The notes beneath the pieces are model-generated. The model was not told the origin of the DNA, made no database searches, and was given only the letters and a program-made list of their open reading frames with translations. Shown here piece by piece: positions 3,270 through 38,888 of a DNA stretch of 64,000 bases (position 1 is its first letter; each line of letters opens with the position of its first letter). Position numbers and translations under genes: made by a program. The DNA comes from Artemia franciscana. Taxonomy: Eukaryota; Arthropoda; Branchiopoda; Anostraca; Artemiidae. The stretch is from positions 45,021,152 through 45,085,151 of the forward strand of contig NC_088865.1 in assembly GCF_032884065.1 (NCBI RefSeq). The letters are read 5' to 3'.

Positions 3270-4810
3270 TTTTTTTAGGGGATGTTGAAATAAATCAAAC
3301 CACACAATGTATACAAGTTGTCAAAATGGTGTATCGGAAATTTCTCATGAACGACTCAGTTTATTAAGTTTAAGCTTACAAGAAATATTGAGAAGAATGT
3401 TGAACTAAGCAGAAAGTGCTGTGTGCATACTGCTATTACTGCCACCACTACTTCCATTACTATGGCGACAACTACTACTAGCGCTAAGGCTATTGAGGTG
3501 AAACTTCCAGGGAGTGTTTAGGGGGTTGTTGAAACAAATCAAAACCCAGTATGTGCAAGCAGGTTGTCTAAAGAGCGGATCAGCAACATCCCAGGAATGG
3601 TCTAGGGCATTAAGTTGATTCATGATCTAGGGCATTATGATTCAGGGCATGTAAAGTGTGATGTTGAAATAAGTAAAAAGCAGTAAGTGCATACTACTGG
3701 GGGGTATTTAATTACATATTGATGGTGAAAGGGCGTATCTCCAATATATTTGGAATGACTAAATATATTATTGTGAAACTTTCAGAGGATGTTAGATTAT
3801 ATGTAGAACAAAATCAAAACGGGATACAAGAATTCTAGTTATCAAAAAGGTGTATCAGCGATATCGAAGGGACAGCCGAGGGTATTAAATTAAACCATCC
3901 AGGGCTACTACAACTATTACTGCTACTACTTCGACTTCTACTGCTACTACTACTACAACTGCTACTGTGATTACCTACGACTTTGACTGCTAACGTTTGT
4001 GACCACTTGTGACTAAATACTTACGACTGCGAATAAATGCAACTCCAGTGACTTGCGGCTGTGCTTCCAACTACCTTTGACTGTGACTGTGGCTACTTGG
4101 AACTGTAATCGTGGTCACAAGGGATTTTGACTGCAACAACTATTTGCGTTTGTAGCTACTTACGACTTTGGATGCAACTACTTATGACTGTGACTGGGAA
4201 CACTTTACACAGTAACTGGGACTACTCGTGACTGCGACTACTTGTGACTGCTACTGTGACTACTTGGAACTGTGGTTGTGGCTACATACGACTCTGACTA
4301 CCTATAACTGCAGCTCTAACTAGCTACGGCTGCAGCTACTACTACTGCTACTACTCCTGCTACTACTACTACAACAATTACTACTGCTACTGTTATTGTT
4401 GAACTAAATCAAAAACTTTAAATGAATCCAGGTTGTCGAAATAGCATAGATGCAATATCTCAGGAATTGAATAGGATATCGAATTAAAACTTTCAGGGAA
4501 AATTGTGGGGTATGTAAAACCCAATCAAAATAAACTATGTGCCTTAAGATTGACAAAAGTATGTCCGTGCAATATCCCAGGAATTAAAAACTAAGTGTAT
4601 TATTTTTGACCTTCTGGCTAAGTTCTGGGGATATTAAACTAAATTAAAGACACAATGTTGATCCAGTTTTCTCCGAAGGGTATATCAGCAATATATCAAG
4701 AAAGGCTTAGAGAGTTTAGTTGAAACTAAATCAAAACAACTGCGTGCATCCAAGGTTGTCAAAAGAGTGTGACAGCTATATCTCAGGTAATATCTAGAAT
4801 ACTAAGTGAA
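3270..4810. repeat. Degenerate interspersed minisatellite region
   Basis: A loosely conserved unit recurs at about 3280, 3525, 3795, 4400, 4520, 4630 and 4715. It consists of a 'TTGAAnTAAATCAAAA' type start, then a word like 'CAGGTTGTC', then an 'AATATCnCAGGAAT' type end. Between copies lie (ACT)n-like triplets at about 3430-3480, 3900-3960 and 4335-4395, and a block at 3960-4330 rich in GACTGTGACTAC words. No coding potential is visible. Confidence 0.65.
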
Positions 4811-5733
4811 AATTTTCAGTTCATATGAAAGATGGGATAGTTGATTTATATTTGTCTGTATTCAAGGCTGTCACATGGTAGGGATTAAAATTCTGTTAGC
4901 CCTACTGAGCCACTAAGATTACTCCGATTTTTAAACCATATGATTGAGCATTTCTCCTTCTATCCATCACTCCAAAGCATTATAGCATAACTATTATAAC
5001 AATAATGCAAAGTTTTGCAGAACATATAAATCGTAAGCCAAAATTTGGGTTTTCACATATAAAACTGAAAATATTAAAAATATCCTTTACTCATCCAGTG
5101 AAATAGACTACGTCAGTTAAAAAAAGAATTGAAATTGCCTTAGAAAGCATTTTCAGCAAAGAGGTTTTTCAAAGAAAAGAAAAGAGCTACATTAGAACTA
5201 AGATGAACAGAAATAAAGTCAAACCACTTTTCAAGGGTGAAACTACCATTGATTACTATAAAAAAATAAATTAACCTCAAAACGAAGAGAAATTACAGTA
5301 AACAGCCAAGAAAATCTCTAAAGGAGCAGAAACAACGACAAACTAGAGAAGAGCACCCAACGCACCCTCCTGCCTTCTAAAAAACCAGAACTTAAATTGC
5401 ACATTACTGAAAACGAAATTTATCTCTTCTACAACTTTAATAAAAGAAAAATTATTCAGACTCACGGGAAGGAATATCCGTATATATTATACTTTCTATT
5501 CCCGTTCATTTGTCTTTTATAGTTAGTTATCTTGATTATGGCGGGCCTGTTTTCCATGTTATGAGTAATGAAGACACAGATCTCGAGATGAAGGTTGTTT
5601 ACAGAAGTCCGAACAGTACGAGGGGTGAAAGGTTTTTTAATCATAAGATTTTTTGCAAGTCTTTTCTATTTGTCATAACACGGGAACTGTAACCGTACAA
5701 GTAGACACATTATAGCCATTTTGTTATTTTTAA
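4811..5733. other. Intergenic upstream of ferritin array
   Basis: AT-rich DNA without a supported gene. A non-coding 5' leader exon of the ferritin gene would be expected upstream of the splice acceptor at 6943, but I cannot identify it or a promoter by eye. Confidence 0.5.
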
Positions 5734-6943
5734 TTTGCTTTTAGGATGAAAGGAGAAGGCCTTCTTCTTATCTTACTGGCAGCTGGAGCCACTACATTAG
5801 CCACTACATGCTACAAGCAGCTATTATAGCTATTATAGCCATTTGACACATTATGATCATTTATTATTTTTAATTTGCTTTTAGGATGAAAGGCCTTCTT
5901 CTTATCTTACTGTCAGCTGGAGCCACTATATTAGCCACTACTTGCTACAAGCAGCTATTATAGCCATTATGGCCATTTGACGCATTATAATCATTTTGTT
6001 ATTTTTAATTTGCTTTTAGGATGAAAGGCCTTCTTCTTATCTTACTGGCAGCTGGAGCCACTACATTAGCCACTACATGCTACAAGCAGCTATTATAGCC
6101 ATTATAGCCATTTGACACATTATAGTCATTTTGTTATTTTTAATTTGCTTTTAGGATGAAAGGCCTTCTTCTTATCTTACTGGCAGCTGGAGCCATTACA
6201 TTAGCCACTACATGCTACAAGCAGCTATTATAGCCATTATAGCCATTTGACACATTATAGTCATTTTGTTATTTTAAATTTGCTTTTAGGATGAAAGGCC
6301 TTCTTCTTATCTTACTGGCAGCTGGAGCCACTACATGCTACAAGCAGCTATTATAGCCATTATAGCCATTTGACACATTATAGTCATTTTATTATTTTTA
6401 ATTTGCTTTTAGGATGAAATGCCTTCTTTTTATCTTACTGGCAGCTAGAGCCACTACATTAGCCACTACATGCTACAAGCAGCTATTATAGCCATTTGAC
6501 ACATTATAGTCATTTATTATTTTTAATTTGCTTTTAGGATGAAAGGCCTTCTTCTTATCTTACTGGCAGCTGGAGCCACTACATTAGCCACTACATGCTA
6601 CAAGCAGCTATTATAGCCATTATAGCCATTTGACACATTATAGTCATTTTGTTATTTTTAATTTGCTTTTAGGATGAAAGGACTTCTTCTTATCTTACTG
6701 GCAGCTGGAGCTATTACATTAGCCACTACATGCTACAAGCAGCTATTATAGCCATTATAGCCATTTAACACATTATAGTCATTTTGTTATTTTTAATTTG
6801 CTTTTAGGATGAAAGGCCTTCTTCTTATCTTACTGGCAGCTGGAGCCACTACATCAGCCACTACATGCTACAAGCAGCTATTATAGCCATTATAGCCATT
6901 TGACACATTATAGTCATTTTATTATTTTTAATTTGCTTTTAGG
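5734..6943 (+). repeat. Tandem array of nine truncated ferritin signal-peptide exons
   Basis: Nine head-to-tail copies of a unit of about 123-140 bp precede the real ferritin exon 1. Each copy has an intron-end-like TTTGCTTTTAG, then G and an ATG (5746, 5886, 6021, 6156, 6291, 6414, 6539, 6674, 6809). Each then reads MKGLLLILLAAGATT... to ...CYKQLL and a TAG stop, about 25 codons, followed by a spacer with TATTATAGCCAT words. Copy 1 has two extra codons, copy 5 lacks 12 bases and copy 6 has several substitutions. The array copies resemble each other more than the functional exon (which reads LAAVATASATT), so they have probably been homogenised. They cannot encode ferritin. They could be decoy acceptors, upstream ORFs or short secreted peptides, but none of this is shown. 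Confidence 0.92.
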
Positions 6944-9900
6944 ATGAAAGGCCTTCTTCTTATCTTACTGGCAGCTGTAGCAACTGCATCAGCAACTACA
7001 TGCTATAAGCAGCTTGTGAACAACAACAAAAACAGGAAAGAATGCTTTTCGGCCCACAGAAGTTTCAATGATGTTAATCTTTATCATTTGCAAAATTTGA
7101 TAAATGAACATTTGGAGCACAGCCTGAAATTTACTATGTTGGTGAGAAAATGAGTTATTAATCCTTAACCTCTGTTTTCATTTGGTGCCTTCCAAACAAA
7201 ACAACATGAAAATACACCAAGAAAAACAAACGAAGACTGATTTTTGATTATAATATTTTGATTTTGATTCTTAAGATTTTAAGAAGATTAGATTTTGTTG
7301 TTGTTTTGTTTTTTTTCTCTTTCTTATATTTTTTTTTGAACACTGAGTGCGACTTGGCGGAGGTCCCTGTCGAAATATTTGTTTCCTTTTCATCTTCATA
7401 TTTTGCAACTAGCTGACAAAATCCTCCTTTTTCACCTATTTGATTTTTCTCTTTTCATTTTTTATTTCCTTTCTTGTTTTCATACGTCATTTCTGATTAC
7501 GAAGACCGTCCTAATTATTAATAGAATCACTTTCTGATTATTATATTTATTCTCCATTTTGTCTTCAAGGGAAACGTTTATCCTCAAATACACCAAAGAG
7601 AGGATCAGTTTTAAAACAGTTCGTGGTAACAAACTTTAAGTAAGGAGCGATGCATTGATAACAATAGATATGTCACATCAGTCGATTTTTAATGCATATT
7701 CAAAATATATAAAATGCATCAAGTTTAATGTTACCCATCGAAAGCTACAAGCCTGAGAGTATTTGCCCAATTTTTGAAAAAAGAGGAGAAACAACCCCGA
7801 AACGTAAAGTGATCTTAATGAAAATCTCGCCATTAGAATTAGCATATCTGAGAACTACTATAGAGGTTTCAAGCCCCTCTATACAAAAATGTGGAATTTT
7901 GCATTTTGTGCCCGGAAAAAGATCACGGATGCGTGTTTACTTGCTAGTTTTTCTTCTCTAGGGATGATCGTATCAAACTAGCGATCCTAGAAGATCGGGA
8001 GAAGGCTCATTTGATTCGGAATCAAAATTATAGTGCCCTTTCTAATGGACCAAAAATTCGGGGGGATAAACATGTAAAAATATTTTTAATACGAGAGAAT
8101 ATTTTCACAGAGGCATCATTCATGGGGAAAATGCATTTTTCACGGAGAAGGAGCTGGATTTTCTGGTATTATTTAAAAAACGATTAGAAATCAAATGAAA
8201 AGAACAAGTTTTATTTGCAGTTGAAAGTAAGAAAAGCGACATTAAAAATTAATCTTTGAGCGAACAAAAATTATTACGTATATGAGGGGTTGCCTCCTCC
8301 TCAATACTTTACCCTTTACGCTAGATTTTTTCTGAACTTTTAAAACAGGCTATTATACTAATTAAACAGCCCCTGTGTTTCAAGATTTATTCATAAATGG
8401 TCGGAGACAAACGTCAAACTCTAACTTGAAAAACGAGGTATTGAGGAGGGGTAGCTCTCCTCATATACGTTATGATATCTTTTCTTTTTAAGTTTTAATG
8501 TTGCTGCTTACTTTCAGCTGACCTATTTTTATTTAGTACAAAGAGTTGGGTAATTTCTAGAAACGTGTTTTCCCATTGGCCAGTTTATTTTGCTGTTTTA
8601 TTTAGTTTTCCGCATTAGGTTTCTTTAGGTTTTATTTCTCCTTTCGTCTATAAGCATACCTAGCTTGAATAAGGAAGCTCAAGGACTTGCCGAGTTTGTT
8701 CTTCTTAATCTCTTGGCCAAATGTCAGTGGTAGATCGAGTGGAATTTGGAAATCCAGGATGGGGAAATTTCCAGGAGGATTTTCTGGAAGGGAATTAGTC
8801 GGGCACCTCTCGTTTCGGTATTAGATCAGTTTAGTTCTATGAAATTATCCTCATTTCAGTGAAAAAAAAATCAGTTTCATATTAGGCTAGTATTAAAAAA
8901 GCTAAACTACAAAAGTTTGATTCTAAATTATATCAATAATTAAGTTTTGATTTGATATTTCAAAAAAGAAAAATGTTAGTGCTAAGCGTTAGAATAAAAA
9001 TAAAAATAAATTCTGATTCGTCAATTGTCAATTTAATATATTTCATCCAAGACAATTCTTTTTTTACTAGCATTAAGAAGAAGTACTTATACTCCTTGCT
9101 GCTATAATTAAACAAACACTCATGTACTTCAGTGAGGTAGCTGGAGGTGGGGGAGTTTAACCGTCTCCAGTACAACATCTGTTTTTGTATCACTTAAGAA
9201 TATTTCATAAAAGATAGGATTACCAGGGATAGGGGTTCAAAATAATATTGCCCTGAGCACTTTGCTTGAGCCCTTACCTGCTACAGAGTTTGCTGTCCTT
9301 TGCTATTTTCCCACCCCAAAATTTAAATAGATATATAAACCATGCGCATATAAATCAAAATGAGAATACGATATTCTCAAGAATATGATAACCTTTTTCT
9401 TTTTTTCTTTTAGGCAAGTCATTTCAACAAGGATATTAAGAATAGAAATGGGTTCTATAAGTATTTCCAAGGCTTATCCGATGAACATTGGAATGACGCC
9501 CTTGAATTGATTGATTATGTCACACTCCGAGGTGGTCATTTGAATCAGATCACTGTTCAGTTTAAAAATGGCACTCGCCGCACTTCAGATAGTCTTTCCC
9601 TTCAGAACGTAAGTTATTACTGTTTTCATTTTATTAGTGGTAAAATTTGAACCTTCTTCAAACCTATAGCAATGTAACACGCTGCAAGGGCAAATATCCC
9701 ACTGCTTTAAATATTTTGTGGTAAGGACCTGTTGTTTTGAGCTAAACAATGTGCATATACCTCCAATTCTCTAAGTTTTTGTTTCATTTTTTTACGGGGG
9801 AAGGGTGAGAGAAAGTTATCAAATAAATAATTCCAGTGATTTGATTTTAGCTAAGGCTCCAAGACGAACGTGGAGAGAAGCACTCACTTGGTCATGCCCT

Positions 9901-11645
9901 TGATGTCACCCGGGACCTAATCACTAATATCCGCCAGCTTATCCACAAGACTGCAGCACATGGAACTGAAAATGAGGATGCCGTGGTGAGTTTTTGAATT
10001 AAGGTGGATAGAAAACTATATTAAGCCAGTGTCTGGGTGGAGCTCTTTCTGATAATATTCAGTTCTTTGCTCCAGCCACATTTATGGTTAGTGTGAAGTT
10101 CTTTACAGATACGACACCTCCTAAGGGCGGGGCCTTCACATATATAGGAAGCCCCCCCCCCCTCTGTTATGTGTTTAGTCACTCGGTAAAAAAGAGAAGT
10201 CTGTAAAATTGTAGCGCTTCACAGCACGAATTTTCCGACGCCCCTAAAAATTTTTGTTCGGTTCAATAAAGACCCCGACAAATAATGCCATTTCATCTAC
10301 AGAAATTTCGAACTTGGTTGGTAGACACAGCAGCTTTACCGACTCCTGCCATGATTTTAAAGATGGTGCCACAATTTTCCATTTGCTTAAATAAACAGTA
10401 TTAAAATAGAGACATGGTATGTTCCAAAATCTGAATCTCGGTTGGAAACTACAGCGGTTTTATTTACTCGTGCAGTGATTTTACGTATTGTATTTGAAAC
10501 CGGCATTATGCTAATTTTTGACCAAAACAGCCGGTAAAAATGACCAGCAAGTCGGTAAAATCTCTTGCTCCCCCCAAAAAATTTTGGCTAGTAACGATCC
10601 TGTCTAGGGATTGGAGTTTCAAGCATACTGCGATTTTCATTTGATCGCCTTGTCTGTAAAAAAAGTCAATTTTTCAAGGGAAAAATTAAACATATTTTAA
10701 ACCTCACTAATGGCCATGAAGGTAAATAATAAATTGAAAAACCAGGTTGTTTTCGTAAATGTGCCAATAGAATAGGAAATGAAAAGTAGACGATCTCCAG
10801 GAATTTCCACAACTTGTAATTTTTCTTAGATTCAAAGAAAAATAAATTATTAATTTATATGATATAGCTTAAATATTACAAATGACCTTTTAAGTGGTAT
10901 CAATTAAGTGGAGGGGTCATTTGCCACAACATGAGTATTGCTCCCCCTCTAGATTTTGAAAAATACCTTTTCGGGTATGTTAGTTGAAAATGGTTGTCTT
11001 TGGTATCTCAATTTAAAAAACGGAAAGACAGATCATTTGTGAATTTTGTTTGGGATCAGCGAACACTGTTAAATATAATAAGCTGCGACAAATCAGATCA
11101 AAATTAGTCACATTATGTCACTTTTCATTCTAATAGTTTTCTTGGGCCAACCAAATTTGGGCACGCTCGGCTGCTTAAGAGAATATATTTTTATATAAAA
11201 TATTCGGGGGGGGGGATAGGAGGGGTAACAATAATAAAATATTGAATCAATTCATACTTAAAAGCCAAGAAATTCAAGATTTTTTATTGGGAGGTGGGGC
11301 ACCCTTGCATACCTCCCTGTTTATTTTACTTCAATATTTAGAGCGATGAGAAATATTCCTTGAGAAAGTTTGGATTTAATTTGTAACAAAATATTCATTT
11401 TTTTCTGTTGACACAATGCATTCTTATTTGATATCGTTCTTTTTAAACAGAGAATTAATATGGATTTCGATAAAATAAATTGTACATCTTTTTATTTATA
11501 GCTTGCACATTTCCTCGAAGAAAAATACACCGAAAAGTATGTCAAGAAGATGCGTGAGCTCTCCGGATTTATGACTGTTCTTCAGTCATTCACCACAGAA
11601 GAAGAAGGGCTGGCCCTTGATTTATTCGACCAGTACATTGCTTAA
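6944..11645 (+). CDS. Secreted ferritin light-chain-like subunit, copy A (4 coding exons)
   Basis: Coding exons 6944-7141, 9414-9608, 9851-9985 and 11502-11645 (stop TAA) give 223 residues. All introns are phase 0 with GT donors and polypyrimidine-AG acceptors. Residues 1-17 form a signal peptide ending ASA, so the protein should enter the secretory pathway, as arthropod haemolymph ferritins do. Mature-chain cysteines are C20 and C34, and there is an N-glycosylation sequon at N118. The RGG turn at 105-107 and the C-terminal helix match ferritin. At the ferroxidase positions before RGG, where heavy chains have the EExxH pattern, this protein has E90, H91 and D94. It therefore looks like a light-chain homologue that nucleates iron rather than oxidising it and would assemble with a heavy chain elsewhere. 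An acceptor AG one base before the ATG implies an upstream leader exon. An ATTAAA lies about 50 bases after the stop. Confidence 0.93.
7606..8536 (+). mobile_element. Family R copy in ferritin intron 1 (left arm)
   Basis: Begins near an ACAGTTCGTGG word, followed by AAGTAAGGAGCGA. It contains the family's ATCACGGATGCGTGTTTA-type segment and a palindromic module (about 8255-8500) with CGTATATGAGG and its complement, and ends ATTTAG before T. It lacks the second half of the full 1.7 kb element. The same copy is at about 28899-29868 in the right arm, so it predates the inverted duplication. Confidence 0.8.
8537..9413 (+). other. Rest of ferritin intron 1
   Basis: AT-rich intronic sequence ending in a strong polypyrimidine tract and TAG acceptor at 9411-9413. 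No other feature is seen. Confidence 0.6.
9986..11501 (+). other. Ferritin intron 3
   Basis: A 1.5 kb phase-0 intron with a GTGAGT-type donor at 9986 and TTTATTTATAG acceptor at 11501. It holds short C and G homopolymers (about 10150 and 11206) but no recognisable element. It is mirrored in the right arm. Confidence 0.8.
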
Positions 11646-11869
11646 ATTACACAATTTTAGTTCATACCCTTTTAATTTTAGTAATGGACGATCATTAAAA
11701 GCCTTTTTATTTGCTTGACTGAGTTGTATGTTCAGCCTAGCTGATGACAGAGGTTTTGCGCTGAGTTTGCTCTTCAAAGATTTCTTTCAGCTGCAAATTT
11801 CTTTTCGTTGAAAAGTAAAAAAGTGGGAAATTAATTTATAAATTATAAGTAGTGCCTTTGTAAAGTTAC

Positions 11870-12330
11870 TTTTTTATTGGATCTTCAACTTTTGCCTCGA
11901 CATGTCTTTCGTCATTATGAAAGACATATCACCGAATCTTTGTATCTTTTAATTGTTCAGGTGGTGAAACAAAACTCCTTCTTTTCCTTGGCTTGTCTTA
12001 AAAGACACATTGCCGACCTTTTTTTCTCTTAGTTGTTCAGGTGGTGGGACACAAACTTCTTTTTCTTCCAACATTTTATCTAGTACAGGTTTTTGATATT
12101 CAAAGATATGGTAGAAATTGATGACCATCTTTGTTTCTTTTAATTGTTCAGGTGGTGGGACAGAAACTTATTCTTTTGCCTCGGCTTGTCTTTTGTCATT
12201 ATGAAAGACATATCGCCAAACCTTTGTTTCTCTTAATTATTCAGGTCGTGGGACAAACACTTCTTTTTCTTCCAACGATTTATCTAATCCAGGTTTCTGA
12301 TTTTCAAAGGTATGGTAGGCATTGATGCCC
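11870..12330 (+). repeat. Imperfect tandem repeats 3' of ferritin copy A
   Basis: The word TTGTTCAGGTGGTGGGACA (and variants), followed by AAACTTCTTTTTCTTCC, recurs at about 11953, 12033, 12146 and 12238. It alternates with a unit containing GTCATTATGAAAGACATAT. The higher-order period is about 250 bp. It is mirrored at about 25110-25560 in the right arm. Short open frames here are by-products of the repeat. Confidence 0.8.
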
Positions 12331-12439
12331 TTATCCATTTTAAAATCCCAAACCCAATCACCGTCATTTTCAATTTTGACACGTTTTTATTCTCGCTGTC
12401 CAGGTTCATTTTCAGTGACTCGCTCACGTGTCCGATGTT

Positions 12440-12566
12440 GCGTGTCTTTTAACCTATAAAATGTAGTGGGGGTGTGGGCGACGCTCATATATGGAATATT
12501 GTCTGTTTGTTTTAAGTTTTAATGTCGCTCCTCACTTTAACTTGAATTTTATTTTATTTAATTTCT
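12440..12566 (+). mobile_element. Family R 3'-end fragment (left arm)
   Basis: Contains TTTTAAGTTTTAATGTCGCT followed by CCTCACTT and an AT-rich end, the diagnostic 3' end of family R. It is mirrored near 24870-24990. Confidence 0.65.
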
Positions 12567-12949
12567 GATCGTTTTTCAAATAATGCCGAGAAATCCATGC
12601 TACACAAAATCGTGTAAACGATTTTTGAACGTGGGCAACCTCGACAGTTCGGAAAGAGTAACTGTTCTTTTTAAAGAATATTTTTAAGGTTTTTAAAACC
12701 TAAGCAAAATGTTGATATGTCTAACTTATTTAACTGAACATACTCTCCCTCCCCACAATAAACACCAGAAATTATAGACACACGGGTGCAGAATAACAAT
12801 AAACAAGAATGAGTTGGAAAGTAACCTCCACAATGCCATAGGTTCTTGTAAACCTACAGTTAAGGGTTTTGGACCATAATTATTACAATGATTCTGTAAT
12901 ATACTTCCAAGGTTTTCCACGTAAGAAATAGCACCCAAAGTGCCTTTTT

Positions 12950-13330
12950 TAGTGCTATATGGCACCTATGGAAGACAGAACTGATAAGAAGCACGTACAT
13001 ATTCAATTCAATTTATTTCTGACCTTTCAACAAAGCAAATGAGCAATAGATTTCAAATGAACCAATAAACATCTCTATCAAAAATTCTGGTAGCGCACTA
13101 GCCCTGACTTTTCCACTTGACATGGCACCAATAGTGCCATTATTGGTGCAAAATGGTGGAATCTATCAGAGACATGTAGATATAATAAATATCTTTTATA
13201 TCAGCTATTAGAAATTTGTCTACGATGTTTTGGTAGCCTCCTAGTCCCACCACTTCGGAAATCGCACCAAAGTGCCATTTAAGCACCATATGGCACCTGA
13301 AGTGCCATATATATTTTCATTTTGATCTGG
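12950..13330. repeat. Cluster of GGTGCCA/TGGCACC palindromic words
   Basis: Within about 380 bp the words TGGCACC, GGTGCCA, AGTGCCAT and their complements occur about ten times in alternating orientation (near 12959, 13126, 13135, 13145, 13266, 13273, 13284, 13291 and 13302). Together they form several possible short hairpins. The block is kept in the right arm (about 24120-24500). Confidence 0.6.
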
Positions 13331-13682
13331 CGCCATTTTCGAGGGATTTCAGCCTTTGTTTGAATTCACCATAATTTTTTTTTGCAATAAACTTATACTT
13401 TTGAGACGAACCGAATTAATAGTTGCCGTTATTCGATCAGTGTCAGATGGCAATTTTTTCACTAACAAGTTTTTTTCTAAATGCATTTTTTAACTTTTGG
13501 TTTCTATGGGCTGCTGATAAATCTTTACTAGGCCGCAGCTGCCGCTGCAACCATGATAGGCTAAGTCGGTTGTAGTTTGGTCATGGAATTTGGTAGAGAG
13601 GGATCCGCTCCCGGGATCATTAAATTGTTTTAATTTTTTTTTCTAGTACTTAATCATAGGAATGTACTTAATTATAGGAATT

Positions 13683-13995
13683 ATTCAGTCTCCTATAAGA
13701 AGCAATTTTGGGACCTAAATTCCTTTGAAGATATTTAGACTAGAGGTATTCAGTTTCCTATAAGAAGAAATTTTTGGACCTAAATTCCTTTGGAGATATT
13801 CAGGCTAGAGGTATTGAGTTTCTCATCAGAAACAATTTTGGGACCTAAATTCCTTTGGAGATATTCAGGCTAGATATTCAGTTTCCCATCAGAAACAATT
13901 TTGGGACCTAAATTCCTTTGGAGATATTCAGGCAAGATACATTCATTTTCTCATATGAAACAATTTTGGGACCTAAATTCCTTTTGAGATAATTG
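13683..13995 (+). repeat. Five-copy tandem repeat of about 62 bp
   Basis: Units contain ATTTTGGGACCTAAATTCCT followed by TTGGAGATATTCAGGC and a variable CTATAAGAA/CATCAGAA part. Five consecutive copies are seen here, and the same array appears inverted at about 23447-23762. Confidence 0.9.
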
Positions 13996-14107
13996 TCGAA
14001 AGGTACTCTCATGTTATACAAGTGTTGTTCTTTTGAATGTTCTGGCACATTTATTCTGTTTACTCTATTTCTATGCAGTTTGATCTGAATATTTTACTCT
14101 ACTTCGG

Positions 14108-14150
14108 AAAAAGCACATAGGGTTTTTTCAGAAGGATCTTAAACCACAAG
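14108..14150 (+). other. Left-arm-specific segment
   Basis: Between a shared CTCTACTTCGGAAA word and a shared TGTACAATTTTATTAAAG word, the left arm has about 45 bases unrelated to the roughly 195 bases at the same place in the right arm (23143-23335). This is a local replacement after or during duplication. Confidence 0.6.
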
Positions 14151-15689
14151 CCTGTACAATTTTATTAAAGCTAAAACGGCCAGCTTATAATAGATCTATT
14201 TGACTTCGCGTCAGATCTTCTCTGGTTTTCCAGTTACCCTTTTCACATTTTTTTCTCCAAAAATTAAATAGTATGTTAAAGTAGATAAGTTAGGAACCCT
14301 CTCATTTGTAGTATTACTCTGAAATTAATTTATCATGAAACGTTTAACTATTTTAATATTAAGAAATCAGATTAATCAAATCTGCCCAACTAATCAGCTT
14401 ACCACAAACAGTTGTCGATAGGAGATTTTTTTTTTACAATTAGTTGAGTTTGACTACTTTTGTGCAATTGACAGTCACTCTAATCTCAGCTATGTGATGA
14501 TAGAATATCTTTTACGTAGTTAGTGAAAATTTAGTTGCAGTAAAGTTTCTCCAATTGAAAGAGCCTTTAAAGAGTCTTATTGAAGGAACCCTTGGAAATT
14601 TCTTGGGCAGTAGAATTTTCGCTGGCTTTTTTCATTAGTTGGCTTAGGAAAAACAAGACAAAGTTATAAATGAATAATAAAATTAAATAGCCAAGAAAAA
14701 CTATGATATTATCATCCAATGAACAGAAAAGAAGCGATAATAACAAAAGCAGATATTTTGGCAAGGGCATCCGCGAAAGTTGTATTCAGTGCTAAAAAAA
14801 GAAGAAAACATCTTCAACCTTATGAACCTTTTTGAACCTTATGAACATTTTTGAGCCTTTTGAACACAGTTTCAACATAACAGTTGTGATTTGTTTGTTA
14901 AATATATCTTTATGCTTTTTGTAACTTACCCAAGAATTCAACTTTTATGTATTTCCAAGCAATGGCACAAACACTCGCTATGTTGAGAAGCTAGAGAATA
15001 ACTCTGGGATGGGGACTCAGATGATCCTAAGCAGTGTTTAGTTAATATTGAGTGGGTTGCTTTTGGAGATAATGCCTGTTTAGAATTTATTAGGACAGAA
15101 TTTGACAAAGCCCTGTATTCACGCACTTTAGATCGAGGAAGACAATCGTGAGGGTAGTTAATTTTGGCCCATTTTGTGTTATATCCAAAAGTCTGGTATT
15201 TTTTGTAATCTAATCAAATGTCTTGAGCTATTGTTATATATGTAGCGGTTGTAAGCTGGATACAATGGCATTTCAGAAGTATGTATGTCTTCGATGAATA
15301 AAATGTAAATGAGGCTAAAATATAACATAAAAAAAACGCCTTTAAGTCTTTCAACATAGCAAACCCGCAGGGCGCGCTGATGGATTTGTAGCAAAAAATG
15401 AAAAGTATCTGGTTAATGAGTCAGTTTAATAGACATTAAAGCAAATTATAAAAAAAACAAAACAACAACGTTAGGCGTCAATTTGTCGGAGCCGTCTTCT
15501 GGTTTACTCTTTTTTTTTTGTAATACAAATTTCTCCTTCTATGTAAAAAGATGTGTAGGCCCTAACATTCTGTGATCAACTTTGGTTTGCCTTAGTCATC
15601 ATAATTTACACTTTTTGGGAATTTTTTAATTTAATAGTCTGTTTCAAGAGATCCATGCAAGGGCATAGAAAGCTTTTTCTTTTTATTTA

Positions 15690-15798
15690 ACCAGTAAGGA
15701 TAGTCCTACAAGAAGAAGCAAAACAAAGACTGCAGTTGATACTTGACACCATAACTGATAAGGCCAAGAAAGCAGTCACGGCCTTCGAATGCCTGGGG
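15690..15798 (+). pseudogene. Reverse-transcriptase tail fragment (left arm)
   Basis: Translation includes VRIVLQEEAKQRLQLILDT followed by ITDKAKKAVTAFECLG. This matches the C-terminal part of the longer LINE RT fragment at 19723-19974. It is a relic of a non-LTR retrotransposon carried in the duplicated segment. Confidence 0.7.
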
Positions 15799-15885
15799 TC
15801 TCTCCTAATTTATTTCTAAGTCTGATGAATCCTTTAAAATTCCGACTTGCATTACCTTAGACCTTAGTTCCTCTAGGGCTAGGTA

Positions 15886-17593
15886 TCAAACAGTTCGTGG
15901 TAACGAACTGTAGTAAGGAGCGACCCGGCTCAATAGTAACCAAAACTCTAAAAAATGGAATTTTGATACCAATAGCTATATCAAAAGAATCGCATTTTAA
16001 TGCTGGTTTTAAATATATAAGTTTCATCAAGTTTAGTCTTACCCATCAAAAGTAACGAGCCTGAGAAAATTTAAGTTATTTTAGAAAATAGGGGGAAACA
16101 CCCCCTAAAAGTCAGAGAATCTTAACGAAAATCACACCATCAGATTCAGCGTATCAGAGAACCCTATTGTAGAAGTTTCGAGCTCCTATCTACAAAAATG
16201 TGGAATTTTGCATTTTTTGCCAGAAGGCAGATCACGGATGCGTGTTTATTTGTTTTTTTTTTTTTTTTTCCCAGGGGTGATCGTATCGACCCAGTTGTCC
16301 TAGAATGTTGCAAGAGGGCTCATTCTAACGGAAATGAAAAGTTCTAGTGCCCTTTTTAAGTGACCAAAAAAATTGGAGGGCACCTAGGCCCCCTCCCACG
16401 CTAATTATTTTCCCAAAGTCAACGGATCAAAATTCTGAGATAGCCATTTTATTCAACGTAGTCGAAAAACCTTATAACTATGTCTTTGGGGACGACTTAC
16501 TCCCCCACAGTCCCCGTGGGAGGGGCAACAAGTTACAAACTTTGACCTGTGCTTACATATAGTAATGGTTATTGGGAAGTATACAGGCGTTTTCAGGAGG
16601 ATTTTTCTGGTTGGGGGGAGGGGTTGAGAAGAGGGGCATATTCTGGGGGAACTTTCCATCGAGAATTTGTCATGGGAAAAGAAAACTTCCATGAAGGGAG
16701 AGCAGGATTTACTAGCATTATTTAAAAAAAAAATTAAAAAATAAATGTGAAAAAGCTTTTTCAGCTGGAAGTAAGGAACAGCAATAAAACTTAAAACAAA
16801 CAGAATTTATTACCCATATAAGGGGCTCACCTCCTTATGATATCTAGCTCTTTACGCTAAAGTATTTTTAGTAATTTCAACTAATTATTCTACGGCTTTT
16901 GTGATTCAGGGGTCATTCTTAATGAATTGGGATAAAATTTAAGCTTTAGTGTAAAGAGCGAGGTACTGACGATGGGGCGAATCCCCTCATATATGTAATA
17001 AAAACATGAGAATACAAAAGTTCTTTACGTAAGCTAATTTATAAGTTACGTAAATCTTTTACCAATAAAAAGATTCGTAAAAAATTAAAAGTTCTAGCTG
17101 CCTTTTTAATTAACGAAAAAATCGGAGGATAACTAGGCTTCGCCCCCGCTCTTTTTTTCTCAAAATCATTCGATCAAAATTATGAGAAAGCCATTTAGCC
17201 CCCCCCCCAAAAAAAAAAATATGCAAATTTTGTTTTGATTATTCCTCTGCGGAGAGCCAAAATCAAAACATGCATTGATTCAAAAACGTTCAGAAATTAA
17301 ATAAAAAAAACGAGTTTTTTTAACTGAAAGTAAGGAGCGACATTAAAACTTAAAACGCACAGAAATTACTTCGTATATGAAAGAGGCTGCTTCCTCATCA
17401 ACGCCCCGCTCTTTACGCTAAAGTTTTTTACTGTTTTAAAAAGAAGAATTGAGAGAAAGAGTCAAACTTTAGCGTAAAGAGCGGGGTGTTGATCAGGAAG
17501 CAGCCTCTTTCATATACGAAGTAATTTCTGTGCGTTTTAAGTTTTAATGTCGCTCCTCACTTTCAGTTAAAAAAACTCGTTTTTTTTATTTAA
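15886..17593 (+). mobile_element. Family R reference copy with two empty sites
   Basis: This 1708 bp insert is absent from the matching positions in the right arm (junction 21409/21410) and in a third related copy (19537/19538). It starts TCAAACAG after an A and ends TTTAA before a T. The empty sites read A|T, so either there is no target duplication or there is a 2 bp AT one. The 5' end folds as a 9 bp stem (15890-15898 with 15903-15911, loop GGTA). The 3' end has AAAAAAAC-TC-GTTTTTTT (17569-17586) just before the terminus. Two long palindromic modules lie inside (about 16750-16990 and 17305-17590), each with AGTAAGGAGCGACATTAAAA and CTCTTTACGCTAAAG words. No ORF of useful size exists, so it is non-autonomous. 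It could be Helitron-like or a foldback/MITE-type element. Confidence 0.88.
17305..17590. repeat. Long palindromic 3' module of family R
   Basis: About 115 bp arms, AGTAAGGAGCGAC...CGCTAAAGTT and its complement, meet around a short centre near 17440. Similar modules occur near 49520-49800, 52500-52775, 55420-55700, 57885-58155 and 62305-62610. As single strands they would form very stable hairpins. Confidence 0.85.
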
Positions 17594-19439
17594 TTGCACA
17601 TAGGGCGTCTAAAAGCCTTGCCAGACGTATCGGAGCGGAGTTGCGGCAATGACGACTTCAAATTACTGTCAAATTGACAGCCCTGTTGTCTTAAGGTCTT
17701 GGTCGTACTGCTGTCTCAAGGTATGTTTTGGTCAACCTCTTCTACACCTCCCCTCTGGGCGCTCAATTTTAATGAAATGATTGAAATGTACTGCTACCAC
17801 AGCCCTTCTAGGTACCCAAAGAATATACATTTATGCGTACAGGTAAAGTTCTTAAGAGTATAGCCAGAGCTCAGGAACTGCATTAGTGCCATTTACTTTC
17901 TACTTTTCCTGCAATTTATATATCTTTTTGAAATTTGTTGGTGGTCACTAGGAAACTGAAATTACTTGCGAGCCATTGCACGTTTTAAACGTATTAGATT
18001 AATTATTTGCTGATTGTGTCTGAGAGGTCCATAGACAGCAATCAATTCTTTTACAAAGAGGAAAGTCTTGGTATGTTTATCTTTCCGCGTAAGCTAGCAA
18101 TGTTTTTGGTTATTTACAAAGGTTCAGCAGGATTTCAAGATTATTAAACTTTTTTTAAAGAAATTTATTTTAATATTTAAACCATGCTGAATCGATCAAA
18201 AATAAATACGCGCATTCAACAAGCTATTGCAGTGTCGAAAAGAAAGGTGCGCTCTTTAAAATTACAAGTTCCCTGGGTGTATCCTTTTTTACAGAGTTTT
18301 CCCCCCAATAGTTATATCAACTTCTGAACGTTTCACTTTCTTTATTGGGTTCTTATAGACTAGCTAAGGGTTATTAGAGACGAAAGTTTGTCTTACAATA
18401 AGTTAATTTCCGCTCAAAATTATAAGCGTTTATGAAACAATTAGAAGATCTTATGGGTCCTAGACGTACCTTTCCAAAATTCAAAAATTCTTTCCAAATT
18501 TTCCGAAGAATTATTTCCGTTTACTTCCACAAAAATTCAAATGTTGTGCGTTTTACTCCAAATGTTTATAAATAAAACAAAAAAAATACGAAGGCTCATT
18601 CCTTGAAAATCAGAGGCATGAATAAGCATCACTTCTGAAAGATTAAACATATTTGAAATAATATTTTATTTACAAGGCTTAAGAGGTAGATAGACCTCTT
18701 TTCGGAGTTGTTTGAACGAATAAAAGCCTTTAAATTTTCATCTGTTGGAAAGTGAAATTAATTCAAGGATTTCACAGTTCAAAAACTGTCAAAAAAAATT
18801 ATAGAAAATTAGCATTTATCTAAAAATTCATTAGAATGAAAAGAAAATCTTCATCTACAGTTATTACTGCAGTTCGAGAAGCAGATTAAAAAAAACATTG
18901 GGGGGGGGGAATAAGCTAAAAAAGCATTGAACACCTCGAGAAGGTGCTGCTTTCCTTTGAAGGTATAGTGGTCACTTAAGATGTATAGTCCACATTTTCA
19001 TTCAGTTGTGACAAAGATGGCATTCCTTAAAACTACACAATTTTTAACAACTAAATAAAATTTCAAAGAAAATCCTTGGGTAAATGAGTCTAGGGGAAGG
19101 TGGGGCAAGAAATTTTTATTTGATATCCATGGTACTCTGAGGGGCTCAATTTTAAACTATTTGCTAAGGAATTAAGGCATTTGGTAGCACCTAGAAGGGC
19201 TGTGGTAGCAGTACATTTCAGTCAGCCAATTAGAAACGTCACTTTACCCTGTAAGAAAAAAGTTTTACAAATGTTTCTCCAGTTGGGTTTTCTTTCTGAT
19301 TTATCAGTAAAGAGCCAAACAGATATGTATCATGAGGATTTTGCCTGAGTTGACCATTTTCAAAAAGCCCATCTTCCGAGTATGTCTAGTCGCCATAGAT
19401 AATCTCAATACTAAAAGCTGATTGGATTAAATAAGTCTT

Positions 19440-20049: not shown

Positions 20050-20470
20050 TAAAATTATTAATATAAGGACAAAATTCTGTTCGTTTTAAATTCTAATGTC
20101 ACTCCTTACTTGAAGTTAAAAAACTTGCTTTTTTTATTTAATATGAGTTTTTGAATAAATGAAGTTTTTGAATTAATGCATGTTTTGACTTTGGCTCACC
20201 TTACATGAATAATTGAAACGAAATTTACATATTAATTTTTTTTTGCTAAATGGCTTTCTCATAGTTATGATCGGACGATTTTGATAAGAAAAACGGGTGG
20301 GGTAGGAGGCCCAGTTAACCTCCAATTTTTGGTAACTTTAAACTACAACTATTTTTTTTTTATTTTTTGTACGAACGTTTTTGTTAGTAATAAACAAACT
20401 TACCTTGCGTATTAACTTACGTAACAAACTTCTACATTTGTGTATTTTTATTACGCATATGAGGGAATTT
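20050..20470 (-). mobile_element. Family R fragment, inner part, reversed
   Basis: Contains the module end (TTAATATGAG after TTTTTATT), then GAATTAATGCATGTTTTGA and a CTCCAATTTTTGGTAAC-type segment, and stops at TATGAGGGAA exactly where the right palindrome arm begins. It may mark the breakpoint of the inversion. Confidence 0.75.
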
Positions 20471-21496
20471 TTGGGGAAGTAAACGGAAATAATTCTTCGG
20501 AAAATTTGGAAAGAATTTTTGAATTTTGGAAAGGTACGTCTAGGACCCATAAGATCTTCTAATTGTTTCATAAACGCTTATAATTTTGAGCGGAAATTAA
20601 CTTATTGTAAGACAAACTTTCGTCTCTAATAACCCTTAGCTAGTCTATAAGAACCCAATAAAGAAAGTGAAACGTTCAGAAGTTGATATAACTATTGGGG
20701 GGAAAACTCTGTAAAAAAGGATACACCCAGGGAACTTGTAATTTTAAAGAGCGCACCTTTCTTTTCGACACTGCAATAGCTTGTTGAATGCGCGTATTTA
20801 TTTTTGATCGATTCAACATGGTTTAAATATTAAAATAAATTTCTTTAAAAAAAGTTTAATAATCTTGAAATCCTGCTGAACCTTTGTAACTAACCAAAAA
20901 CATTGCTAGCTTACGCGGAAAGATAAACATACCAAGACTTTCCTCTTTGTAAAAGAATTGATTGCTGTCTATGGACCTCTCAGACACAATCAGCAAATAA
21001 TTAATCTAATACGTTTAAAACGTGCAATGGCTCGCAAGTAATTTCAGTTTCCTAGTGACCACCAACAAATTTCAAAAAGATATATAAATTGCAGGAAAAG
21101 TAGAAAGTAAATGGCACTAATGCAGTTCCTGAGCTCTGGCTATACTCTTAAGAACTTTACCTGTACGCCTAAATGTATATTCTTTGGGTACCTAGAAGGG
21201 CTGTGGTAGCAGTACATTTCAGTCATTTCATTAAAATTGAGCGCCCAGAGGGGAGGTATAGAAGAGGTTGACCAAAACATACCTTGAGACAGCAGTACGA
21301 CCAAGACCTTAAGACAACAGGGCTGTCAATTTGACAGTAATTTGAAGTCGTCATTGCCGCAACTCCGCTCCGATACGTCTGGCGAGGCTTTTAGATGCCC
21401 TATGTGCAATACCTAGCCCTAGAGGAACTAAGGTCTAAGGTAATGCAAGTCGAAATTTTAAAGGATTCATCAGACTTAGAAATAAATTAGGAGAGA

Positions 21497-21604
21497 CCCC
21501 AGGCATTCGAAGGCCGTGACTGCTTTCTTGGCCTTATCAGTTATGGTGTCAAGTATCAACTGCAGTCTTTGTTTTGCTTCTTCTTGTAGGACTATCCTTA
21601 CTGG
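21497..21604 (-). pseudogene. Reverse-transcriptase tail fragment (right arm)
   Basis: Mirror copy of 15690-15798, with the same DTITDKAKKAVTAFECLG reading on the - strand. It is followed by the arm-specific ACTGGTTAAAT boundary shared with the left arm. Confidence 0.7.
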
Positions 21605-23142
21605 TTAAATAAAATGAAAAAGCTTTCTATGCCCTTGCATATCTCTTGAAACAGACTATTAAATTAAAAAATTCCCAAAAAGTGTAAATTATGATGACTA
21701 AGGCAAAACAAAGTTGATCACAGAATGTTAGGGCCTACACATCTTTTTACATAGAAGGAGAAATTTGTATTGCAAAAAAAAAGAGTAAACCAGAAGACGG
21801 CTCCGACAAATTGACGCCTAACGTTGTTGTTTTGTTTTTTTTTATAATTTGCTTTAATGTCTATAAACTGACTCATTAACCAGATACTTCTCATTTTTTG
21901 CTACAAATCCATCAGCGCGCCCTGCGGGTTTGCTATGATGAAAGACTTAAAGGCGTTTTTTTTATGTTATATTTTAGCCTCATTTACATTTTATTCATCG
22001 AAGACATACATACTTCTGAAATGCCATTGTATCCAGCGTGCAACCGCTACATATATAACAATAGCTCAAGACATTTGATTAGATTACAAAAAATACCAGA
22101 CTCTTGGATATAACACAAAATGGGACAAAATTAACTACCCTCACGATTGTCTTCCTCGATCTAAAGTGCGTGAATCCAGGGCTTTGTCAAATTCTGTTCT
22201 AATAAATTCTAAACAGGCATTATCTCCAAAAGCAACCCACTCAATATTAACTAAACACTGCTTAGGATCATCTGAGTCCCCATCCCAGAGTTATTCTCTA
22301 GCTTCTCAACATAGCAAGTGTTTGTGCCATTGCTTGGAAATACATAAAAGTTGAATTCTTGGGTAAGTTACAAAAAGCATAAAGATATATTTAACAAACA
22401 AATCACAACTGTTATGTTGAAACTGTGTTCAAAAGGCTCAAAAATGTTCATAAGGTTCAAAAAGGTTCATAAGGTTGAAGATGTTTTCTTCTTTTTTTAG
22501 CACTGAATACAACTTTCGCGGATGCCCTTGCCAAAATATCTGCTTTTGTTATTATCGCTTCTTTTCTGTTCATTGGATGATAATATCATAGTTTTTCTTG
22601 GCTATTTAATTTTATTATTCATTTATAACTTTGTCTTGTTTTTCATAAGCCAACTAATGAAAAAAGCCAGCGAAAATTCTACTGCCCAAGAAATTTCCAA
22701 GGGTTCCTTCAATAAGACTCTTTAAAGGCTCTTTCAATTGGAGAAACTTTACTGCAACTAAATTTTCACTAACTACGTAAAAGATATTCTATCATCACAT
22801 AGCTGAGATTAGAGTGACCGTCAAGTGCACAAAAGTAGTCAAACTCAACTAATTGTAAAAAAAAAAAATCTCCTATCGACAACTGTTTGTGGTAAGCTGA
22901 TTAGTTGGGCAGATTTGATTAATCTGATTTCTTAATATTAAAATAGTTAAACGTTTCATGATAAATTAATTTCAGAGTATTACTACAAATGAGAGGGCTC
23001 CTAACTTATCTACTTTAACATACTATTTAATTTTTGGAGAAAAAAATGTGAAAAGGCTAACTGGAAAACCAGAGAAGATCTGACGCGAAGTCAAATAGAT
23101 CTATTATAAGCTGGCCGTTTTAGCTTTAATAAAATTGTACAG

Positions 23143-23335
23143 GAAAGGAAAAGGAATAGGTTTTATTTGCACAATCTTTCGTAGTCATAAAACTAAATGG
23201 CGCTTGTGCTTACAAAAAAGAAAAAAGGATTAAATCAAACGACAAAAAAAAAATCAGAAGGCAAATAGTTTAAAATCAACAATTGTTATACTTTGATACA
23301 AAGAAAGGGATGAATGAGTTGGAAAAACGATTTCC
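23143..23335. other. Right-arm-specific segment
   Basis: About 195 bases that replace the 45 bases at 14108-14150 of the left arm. The segment is AT-rich with a purine-rich part (AGGAAAGGAAAAGGAATAGG). No gene is seen. Confidence 0.6.
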
Positions 23336-23446
23336 GAAGTAGAGTAGAATATTCAGATCAAACTGCATAGAAATAGAGTAAACAGAATAAATGTGCCAGA
23401 ACATTCAAAAGGCTTGTATAACATGAGAGTACCTTTCGACAATTAT

Positions 23447-23762
23447 CTCAAAAGGAATTTAGGTCCCAAAATTGTTTCATATGAGAAAATGAATGTATCT
23501 TGCCTGAATATCTCCAAAGGAATTTAGGTCCCAAAATTGTTTCTGATGGGAAACTGAATGTATCTAGCCTGAATATCTCCAAAGGAATTTAGGTCCCAAA
23601 ATTGTTTCTAATGGGAAACTCAATACCTCTAGCCTGAATATCTCCAAAGGAATTTAGGTCCAAAAATTTCGTCTTATAGGAAACTGAATACCTCTAGTCT
23701 AAATATCTTCAAAGGAATTTAGGTCCCAAAATTGCTTCTTATAGGAGACTGAATAATTCCTA
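23447..23762 (-). repeat. Five-copy tandem repeat of about 62 bp (right arm)
   Basis: Inverted counterpart of 13683-13995, with the AGGAATTTAGGTCCCAAAAT core in each unit. Confidence 0.9.
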
Positions 23763-24869
23763 TAATTAAGTACATTCCTATGATTAAGTACTAGAAATAA
23801 AAAATTAAAACAATTTAATGATCCCGGGAGCGGATCCCTCTCTACCAAATTCCATGAACAAACTACAACCGACTTAGCCTACCATGGTTGCAGCGGCAGC
23901 TGCGGCCTAGTAAAGATTTATCAGCAGCCCATAGAAACCAAAAGTTAAAAAATGCATTTAGAAAAAAACTTGTTAGTGAAAAAATTGCCATCTGACACTG
24001 ATCGAATAATGGCAACTATTAATTCGGTTCGTCTCAAAAGTATAAGTTTATTGCGAAAAAAAATTATGGTGAATTCAAACAAAGGCTGAAATCCCTCGAA
24101 AATGGCGCCAGATCAAAATGAAAATATATATGGCACTTCAGGTGCCATATGGTGCTTAAATGGCACTTTGGTGCGATTTCCGAAGTGGTGGGACTAGGAG
24201 GCTACCAAAACATCGTAGACAAATTTCTAATAGCTGATATAAAAGATATTTATTATATCTACATTTCTCTGATAGATTCCACCATTTTGCACCAATAATG
24301 GCACTATTGGTGCCATGTCAAGTGGAAAAGTCAGGGCTAGTGCGCTACCAGAATTTTTGATAGAGATGTTTATTGGTTCATTTGAAATCTATTGCTCATT
24401 TGTTTTGTTGAAAGGTCAGAAATAAATTGAATTGAATATGTACGTGCTTTTTATCAGTTCTGTCTTCCATAGGTGCCATATAGCACTAAAAAAGGCACTT
24501 TGGGTGCTATTTCTTACGTGGAAAACCTTGGAAGTATATTACAGAATCATTGTAATAATTATGGTCCAAAACCCTTAACTGTAGGTTTACAAGAACCTAT
24601 GGCATTGTGGAGGTTACTTTCCAACTCATTCTTGTTTATTGTTATTCTGCACCCGTGTGTCTATAATTTCTGGTGTTTATTGTGGGGAGGGAGAGTATGT
24701 TCAGTTAAATAAGTTAGACATATCAACATTTTGCTTAGGTTTTAAAAACCTTAAAAATATTCTTTATAAAGAACAGTTACTCTTTCCGAACTGTCGAGGT
24801 TGCCGACGTTCAAAAATCGTTTACACGATTTTGTGTAGCATGGATTTCTCGGCATTATTTGAAAAATGA

Positions 24870-24990
24870 TCAGAAATTAAATAAAATAAAATTCAAGTTA
24901 AAGTAAGGAGCGACATTAAAACTTAAAACAAACATACAATATTCCATATATGAGCGTCGCCCACACCCCCACTACATTTTAGAGGTTAAA
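24870..24990 (-). mobile_element. Family R 3'-end fragment (right arm)
   Basis: Mirror of 12440-12566, with AAGTAAGGAGCGACATTAAA as the diagnostic word. Confidence 0.65.
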
Positions 24991-25109
24991 AGACACGCAA
25001 CATCGGACACGTGAGCGAGTCACTGAAAATGAACCTGGACAGCGAGAATAAAAACGTGTCAAAATTGAAAATGACGGTTATTGGGTTTGGGATTTTAACA
25101 TGGATAAGG

Positions 25110-25560
25110 GCATCAATGCCTACCATACCTTTGAAAATCAGAAACCTGGACTAGATAAATCGTTGGAAGAAAAAGAAGTGTTTGTCCCACGACCTGAATA
25201 ATTAAGAGAAACAAAGGTTTGGCGATATGTCTTTCATAATGACAAAAGACAAGCCGAGGCAAAAGAATAAGTTTCTGTCCCACCACCTGAACAATTAAAA
25301 GAAACAAAGATGGTCATCAATTTCTACCATATGTTTGAATATCAAAAACCTGTACTAGATAAATTGTTGGAAGAAAAAGAAGTTTGTGTCCCACCACCTG
25401 AACAACTAAGAGCAAAAAAAGTTCGGCAACGTGTCTTTTAAGACAAGCCAAGGAAAAGAAGGAGTTTTGTTTCACCACATGAACAATTAAAAGATACAAA
25501 GATTCGGTGATATGTCTTTCATAATGACGAAAGACATGTCGAGACAAAAGTTGAAGATCC
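25110..25560 (-). repeat. Imperfect tandem repeats 3' of ferritin copy B
   Basis: Mirror of 11870-12330. Slightly diverged units with CCACCACCTGAACAATTAA words. Confidence 0.8.
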
Positions 25561-25793
25561 AATAAAAAAGTAACTTTGCAAAGGCACTACTTATAATTTA
25601 TAAATTAATTTCCCACTTTTTTACTTTTCAACGAAAAGAAATTTGCAGCTGAAAGAAATCTTTGAAGAGCAAACTCAGCGCAAAACCTCTGTCATCAGCT
25701 AGGCTGAACATACAACTCAGTCAAGCAAATAAAAAGGCTTTTAATGATCGTCCATTACTAAAATTAAAAGGGTATGAACTAAAATTGTGTAAT

Positions 25794-30532: not shown

Positions 30533-30850
30533 CCTAAAAGCAAATTAAAAAATAATAAAATGACTATAATGTGTCAAATGGCTATAATGGCTATAATAGC
30601 TGCTTGTAGCATGTAGTGGCTGATGTAGTGGCTCCAGCTGCCAGTAAGATAAGAAGAAGGCCTTTCATCCTAAAAGCAAATTAAAAATAACAAAATGACT
30701 ATAATGTGTTAAATGGCTATAATGGCTATAATAGCTGCTTGTAGCATGTAGTGGCTAATGTAATAGCTCCAGCTGCCAGTAAGATAAGAAGAAGTCCTTT
30801 CATCCTAAAAGCAAATTAAAAATAACAAAATGACTATAATGTGTCAAATG
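30533..30850 (-). repeat. Remnant of signal-exon array (two units, right arm)
   Basis: Two truncated exon copies with start codons at 30668 and 30803 (complement). The 30803 unit has the AAAGGACTTC and GCTATTACA variants of the left unit starting at 6674. This shows that the duplication captured the array from that unit onward. Confidence 0.9.
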
Positions 30851-30853
30851 GCA

Positions 30854-31343
30854 CTGAAATTTACTGTGTTGGTGAGAAAATGAGTTATTAATCCTTAACC
30901 TCTGTTTTCATTTGGTGCCTTCCAAATAAAACAGCATGAAAATACACCAAGAAAAGCAAACGGAAACTGATTTTTGATTATAATATTTTGATTTTGATTC
31001 TTAAGATTTTAAGAAGATTAGATTTTGTTGTTGTTTTGTTTTTGTTTTTTTTCTCTTTCTTATATTTTTTTTTGAACACTGAAGGCGACTTGGCGGAGGT
31101 CCCTGTCGAAATATTTGTTTCCTTTTCATCTTCATATTTTGCAACTAGCTGACAAAATCCTCCTTTTTCACCTATTTGATTTTTCTCTTTTCATTTTTTA
31201 TTTCCTTTCTTGTTTTCATACGTCATTTCTGATTATGAAGACCGTCATAATTATTAATAGAATCACTTTCTGATTATTATATTTATTCTCCATTTTGTCT
31301 TCAAGGGAAACGTTTATCCTCAAATACACCAAAGAGAGCACCA
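30854..31343 (+). repeat. Third partial ferritin copy (exon 1 end plus intron 1 start)
   Basis: Corresponds to 7124-7606, starting CTGAAATTTACTGTGTTGG and running through the donor GTGAGA into intron 1 as far as CACCAAAGAGAGCACCA. It shares variants with the right arm (ACTGTG, AAATAAAACAGCATG) and others with the left arm (CTTGGCGGAGG). It cannot code because it lacks a start and other exons. With 29870-30350 it forms a second, smaller inverted repeat around a 0.5 kb centre. Confidence 0.9.
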
Positions 31344-35850: not shown

Positions 35851-35856
35851 AACCGG

Positions 35857-38800: not shown

Positions 38801-38888
38801 TTACAATACCCTACCGCTTGAACTGAGAGATAGGAGCTCCCTTGGTTCTTTCAAAAAGAGAATAAAAAATTATCTTGTTTTGAATTAG
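35857..38888 (+). pseudogene. LINE ORF2 (EEP endonuclease + RT), one frameshift
   Basis: The first frame runs to 37839 and the second from 37836 to 38888, together about 1010 residues. The EEP endonuclease begins FSVVQLNCQGL (about 36019), with the LCET, IYRSPS, IIMGDFNIN and SDHFPI motifs that supply metal ligands and the catalytic D/H. RT follows with FGFDRIHTKAL, RIIPLHKGGP, NFRPISILSVFSK, GHSTEDAL and LIDIKKAFD. After the shift come GVPQGSILGPLLF and FADDTT (catalytic DD), then KYLGVIVD and the thumb region LIRPHLQYCAMVWQ. The frame change near 37830 falls between IDIKKAFD and the VPQGS block and is a single-base event. Only one break suggests a fairly young copy. Clade (CR1, L2, Daphne or Jockey) needs a tree. 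Confidence 0.88.

Follow-up and report, generated by a model that had tools for sequence, protein, structure and literature searches.

An array of truncated exon edges, each with an acceptor and a start codon, ahead of the first coding exon of an Artemia ferritin gene

Intron 7 of the human F7 gene carries an array of 37-bp repeats, variable in number, that holds many near-identical repeated splice donors; according to a review, only the most upstream of these is used normally (PMC6627357). The array described here, found in a ferritin gene of the brine shrimp Artemia franciscana, resembles F7 intron 7 in that the splice site at the edge of an exon is multiplied as part of a tandem array. The two differ in what is repeated and where: the F7 units are 37 bp long, carry donors and follow an internal exon, whereas the ferritin units are 135 bp long, carry acceptors, an ATG and a signal-peptide-like frame, and precede the first coding exon. 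They differ too in that the splice choice is reported for F7, whereas for the ferritin array we infer it. The ferritin array is most likely to be an acceptor-side mirror of F7 intron 7, and such an example for acceptors in an animal gene would complement the donor case. A limited search of the open literature found no paper on an acceptor-side exon-edge array.

Two broader classes invite comparison. With ordinary intronic minisatellites the array shares head-to-tail units, a common junction, multi-unit duplications and the lack of any detected selection on content, but it differs from them in being anchored in a coding exon, with an acceptor and a start codon in every unit. Regulatory upstream ORFs and alternative 5' UTR splicing form a class known for uORFs ahead of the main ORF; the ferritin mRNA would likewise carry uORFs if a unit acceptor were used, but the unit peptides differ from that class in showing no sign of selection. 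The reading we favour, and consider probable, is that the array is a neutral minisatellite that straddles an acceptor and is tolerated by exon definition, with the splice choice falling on the last copy and expression presumably unaffected.

Anatomy of the array and of the gene that carries it

Within the 64,000-nucleotide stretch of DNA analysed (the window), TRF, used with a reporting threshold of score 50, returned the array as a single entry with a period of 135, 9.8 copies, 92% matches and a score of 2197 (Table 1). Each unit of ~135 bp consists of ~72 nt of ferritin exon A followed by ~63 nt of intron tail. An 18-base acceptor-plus-start motif, TTTGCTTTTAGGATGAAA, occurs exactly at ten places on the plus strand between 5734 and 6932, nine of them leading into truncated units and the last into the real exon; in the right arm of the palindrome described below it is found at three places (two units and the exon). 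The acceptor AG and the ATG are present in all nine truncated units and in the real exon. Just past each unit acceptor begins a short ORF of 21–27 codons (25 in seven of the nine), which ends ...CYKQLL and is closed by TAG in 9/9 cases, the stop being supplied by the join of exon and intron tail, AAGCAGCT|ATTATAG, that is common to all nine units. The TRF entry and the motif and ORF counts confirm what the sequence-only reading had described, a nine-fold array of a truncated exon start before the real exon in which every unit keeps an acceptor and a start codon and stops after about 25 codons. The unit/exon junction bears out its further claim that what is repeated is a coding exon's 5' edge together with the acceptor, and the positions of the ORFs agree with its point that a unit acceptor, if used, would place short uORFs ahead of the ferritin ORF.

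Table 1 Features of the array, the ferritin copies and related loci (positions in the window unless a locus is named)
Feature	Position	Strand	Details
Tandem array	5704–7014	+	nine truncated units and the repeat-homologous part of the real exon; TRF, direct repeats
Unit 1 ORF	5746–5829	+	27 codons, in-frame 6-bp insertion; acceptor AG 5743–5744
Unit 2 ORF	5886–5963	+	25 codons
Unit 3 ORF	6021–6098	+	unit identical to unit 7
Unit 4 ORF	6156–6233	+	
Unit 5 ORF	6291–6356	+	21 codons, 12-bp in-frame deletion between direct repeats
Unit 6 ORF	6414–6491	+	
Unit 7 ORF	6539–6616	+	
Unit 8 ORF	6674–6751	+	unit identical to R1 of the inverted copy
Unit 9 ORF	6809–6886	+	unit equal to R2 except for one T
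Real exon A	6943–7141	+	199 nt; ATG 6944, signal-peptide-like start, donor gtgaga at 7142
Exon B	9414–9608	+	preceding AG, then gtaagt
Exon C	9851–9985	+	
Exon D	11502–11645	+	TAA stop included
Palindrome left arm	6625–18538	+	holds the ferritin gene
Palindrome right arm	20465–30852	-	inverted second ferritin copy
Right-arm exons	A 30533–30335, B 28026–27832, C 27587–27453, D 25937–25794	-	counted by hand from alignments
R1 ORF	30726–30803	-	truncated unit, positional match of unit 8
R2 ORF	30591–30668	-	truncated unit, positional match of unit 9
Fold-back copy	30854–31338	+	end of exon A and start of the next intron, directly upstream of R1
Exon-B-edge array, L052	4044–4994		
Exon-B-edge array, L051	5069–7655		broken up by a long T-rich, repeat-like insert

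Exons A to D join in phase, with AG/GT borders, to encode a 223-residue ferritin, and this coding sequence is intact in spite of the array. The product matches the ferritin family PF00210 (E 1.5e-9), and its best solved relative is 1z6o_A, the moth ferritin light chain (E 8.4e-18), with the heavy chain 1z6o_M scoring E 1.1e-12. At the N-terminus, MKGLLLILLAAVATASA reads by eye as a signal peptide. The gene is predicted to encode a secreted-type arthropod ferritin, probably of the light-chain type if the best score by itself is taken as a guide. A protein search of the genome (1,270,528,402 bases in 6468 contigs; E ≤ 1) listed 17 matches, none of them outside the window; they comprise the exons of both ferritin copies and nine matches to the truncated units.

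We propose that the array began with a tandem duplication that would have joined a point ~70 bp inside exon A, past AAGCAGCT, to one ~60 bp up the preceding intron, and that later slippage or unequal exchange, some rounds of it involving several units at once, may have brought the number of extra copies to nine. Each copy has a working-looking acceptor and the first third of the exon but no good donor, and only the last leads to a whole exon with a donor and so would be defined as an exon. Since the local acceptor sequence of the real exon is no different from that of the units, sequence alone does not explain the choice. Under exon definition, the copy with a complete short exon and a donor would win: the predicted exon is 199 nt long from the real acceptor, 334 nt from that of unit 9 and ~1.4 kb from that of unit 1. 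The other nine copies would mostly be removed with the intron, apart from a possible slight leakage into transcripts that bear uORFs. Direct support exists for the anatomy, the common junction, the age of the array relative to the palindrome, the lack of a signal of selection on the peptides and the recurrence at a second ferritin gene. Ten near-identical acceptors, the last alone with a full exon and a donor, amount to a natural experiment on spliceosome choice, the choice at issue being that between the acceptor first met and the acceptor that is exon-defined.

Recurrence in a second ferritin gene, chance and selection

A family search of the genome gave six further ferritin matches. Two of these loci, L051 (C3:3.243 Mb) and L052 (C129), are diverged copies of one gene, 93.2% identical over 1.9 kb, in which the 5' edge of the exon-B equivalent (GCAACTCATTTTGGTCGTGATGACG...) is repeated together with intron tail at a period of ~67. 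Counting copies with at least 34 of 48 matching bases, L051 has 16 truncated exon-B edges before the real exon and L052 has 13. By eye, the repeated edge reads ATHFGRDDVALPGLEKF, followed in its commonest form by an in-frame TAA. L052 also shows a 337-bp higher-order repeat of about five units (2.8 copies, 95%; TRF), which is not listed for L051. An AG stands at 8/13 truncated boundaries in L052 and at 11/16 in L051, where three of the five misses are partial copies that do not include the boundary. The AG being missing at some of these boundaries, upstream acceptors are not needed there, which lends indirect support to use of the site joined to the complete exon. The real exon is open in both copies and differs at 6/228 sites (four silent, two amino acids changed); the next intron differs at 46/1185 sites. 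With the exon differing nearly as much as the intron, constraint is weakly shown at this gene. The case shows that the window is not alone in having this anatomy, that array content changes and that an open exon is compatible with the loss of upstream acceptors; the recurrence also makes chance versus selection testable. In L052, about three dispersed, decayed 5' edges of exon C with an acceptor were seen by eye near 6825, 6985 and 7220, the real one lying at ~7640.

How often such arrays should arise by chance can be gauged from array coverage, counting arrays with a period of at least 40 and at least 2.5 copies. By this count, tandem arrays make up 3.68% of the flanking DNA (80 kb) and 3.63% of the window, ferritin array included. 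At nine ferritin loci the figure is 9.37%, which is above the flanks partly because two of those loci hold the second array. The sequence-only reading called the array unlike ordinary minisatellites, and this is half true: the repeat of a coding-exon edge with its acceptor does set it apart, but at 3.68% coverage some arrays will straddle exon edges, and an occasional one is to be expected rather than rare in such a genome. A tally by eye of ~25 exon edges at 3.7% gives ~0.9 arrays expected by chance, against two seen with the present finding included; chance is therefore not rejected, and the 9.37% coverage would explain still more. TRF and translated searches found no exon-edge array at L048 (three exons), L049/L050 (exon B), L053/L055 (exons B, A) or L056 (exon A); neither exon A nor exon C was recovered at L049 or L050. 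Weak matches inside the array of L053 (E 1–5) were taken as noise. In L050 a 105-bp minisatellite of 11.5 copies (3555–4760) ends ~185 bp before exon B and is not at an exon edge.

An alternative to a neutral minisatellite, raised by the sequence-only reading, is control by decoy acceptors, in which transcripts spliced to a unit would carry from one to nine 25-codon uORFs and be poorly translated or degraded, so that unit number would set the amount of ferritin. This would fit the intact acceptor, ATG and frame of all nine units, and the ORF region has three length changes, of 6, 12 and 9 bp, each a multiple of three; the 12- and 9-bp changes, however, lie between direct repeats, so that their lengths need no selection. 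The acceptor/start core (28 of 135 positions) is slightly less variable than the rest of the unit, with one of the 18 variable sites (P 0.07, not significant), and over 6662–7000 the palindrome arms show 0/339 differences, fewer than in the flanks and against a noncoding mean of 1.8%, to which we give little weight because bins of ~500 sites range from 0 to 4.45%. Low core variation and this stretch of identity could reflect constraint on the units. The ORFs themselves lack an excess of silent changes: the ten distinct changed sites comprise three synonymous and seven nonsynonymous, which matches the neutral expectation of 27–33% synonymous and lends no support to selection on the tiny secreted peptides that the units had been suggested to give. 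The arrays of the second ferritin gene and the coverage of the ferritin loci, above that of the flanks, speak for decoy control, but the second gene lacks an AG in 5/13 and 5/16 truncated copies. On balance we regard decoy control of this gene as unlikely. Its extension to the family, that Artemia ferritin genes recurrently carry exon-edge arrays, variable in copy number, that act as decoy acceptors, divert part of the pre-mRNA into transcripts with uORFs or stops and set output by their length, seems to us highly improbable.

The palindrome and the age of the array

The ferritin gene sits in a palindrome with a spacer of ~1.9 kb between its arms. The right arm holds an inverted ferritin copy, not part of what the sequence-only reading described, with two truncated units (30462–30852), against nine in the left arm, the right arm being broken inside the array. 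At 30853 the right copy meets an inverted stretch of its own intron and exon end, and it is therefore without the upstream flank of the left gene. Noncoding sites differ between the arms at 151 of 8525 positions; coding sites differ at 5/673 (one base past the stop counted), four of the five being silent, so that both ferritin copies look constrained.

The truncated units of the right arm date the array. Unit 8 and R1 show no differences, and unit 9 and R2 no substitutions and a single indel of one T, whereas unit 8 differs from every other left unit by at least three substitutions. This positional match of R1 and R2 to units 8 and 9 shows that the array is older than the palindrome and that its 3' end has been static since. 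The homogeneity of the units had been put down to ongoing conversion or slippage; as a sign of ongoing conversion it fails at the 3' end of the array, where units 8 and 9 still equal R1 and R2 despite the 151/8525 divergence of the arms. Further upstream, units 3 and 7 are identical and the remaining seven are each distinct; units 4 and 8 share variants, as do units 5 and 9, whose shared variants recur in units 1 and 6. The identity of units 3 and 7 and the variants common to 4/8 and 5/9 suggest an older multi-unit duplication within the array.

An assembly artefact, with the copy number or the inverted copy arising from long-read misassembly or from two joined haplotypes, is quite unlikely. 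The matching female A. franciscana assembly (1,270,721,445 bp in 6486 scaffolds) is based on PacBio Sequel reads and has a contig N50 of 383 kb (PMC11492255), which leaves room for such an error, and the fold-back stem is a left/right mosaic in which sites match one arm or the other, with no private substitutions and one private 6-bp insertion. Against an artefact, the 144 kb around the locus (contig C3, 44,971,152–45,115,151) contain no N gaps, the arms differ at 151/8525 noncoding sites, and a 1.7-kb repeat (15885–17595) is found in the left arm where the right has a clean empty site, an arrangement that tells against a read artefact. Only units 3 and 7 share a sequence, the other seven being distinct from one another, and the same anatomy is found at L051/L052. 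Relatives of the 1.7-kb repeat lie at 52–58 kb and 62–64 kb of the window.

The region upstream of the array

Exon A begins one base before the ATG, so that an acceptor role for the AG ahead of it would require a non-coding 5' exon further upstream; such an exon was looked for and not found. The sequence just upstream of the array (4400–5740) is a dispersed repeat, with 45 matches elsewhere, eight in the array and one to the query itself among 54 matches listed, a lower bound. A TATA/initiator pair noticed by eye near 5480–5510 was dropped because it sits inside this repeat. Rfam at the gathering cut-off gave no hits of any kind in the window, and so no iron-responsive element, and a relaxed Rfam scan of 30 kb upstream gave none among 33 matches, most of which are microRNA families stacked at L009 8808–8918. 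In a custom hairpin scan that covered the window and as much as 50 kb upstream, the coding strand gave no such element and the minus strand two weak matches. That the units are instead duplicated core promoters or 5' leaders, with transcription starting in each and the T-rich stretch before the ATG serving as leader, would account for the missing upstream exon and coding-strand iron-responsive element, and the unit does hold an initiator-like TCATTTT (by eye), but TTTTTAATTTGCTTTTAG|G resembles the other acceptors of the ferritin gene, no clear TATA box is seen by eye and a far 5' exon is common, so that we hold this to be very unlikely.

Mobile elements occur elsewhere in the window. Two ORFs at 35809–38888 belong to a non-LTR retrotransposon with endonuclease and reverse transcriptase domains, a Helitron-like N-terminal domain is split across two ORFs at 39134–39799 on the minus strand, and a 799-aa ORF at 45900–48299, also on the minus strand, encodes a Mutator-like transposase domain (E 4.5e-67) and, after it, a YqaJ recombinase domain.
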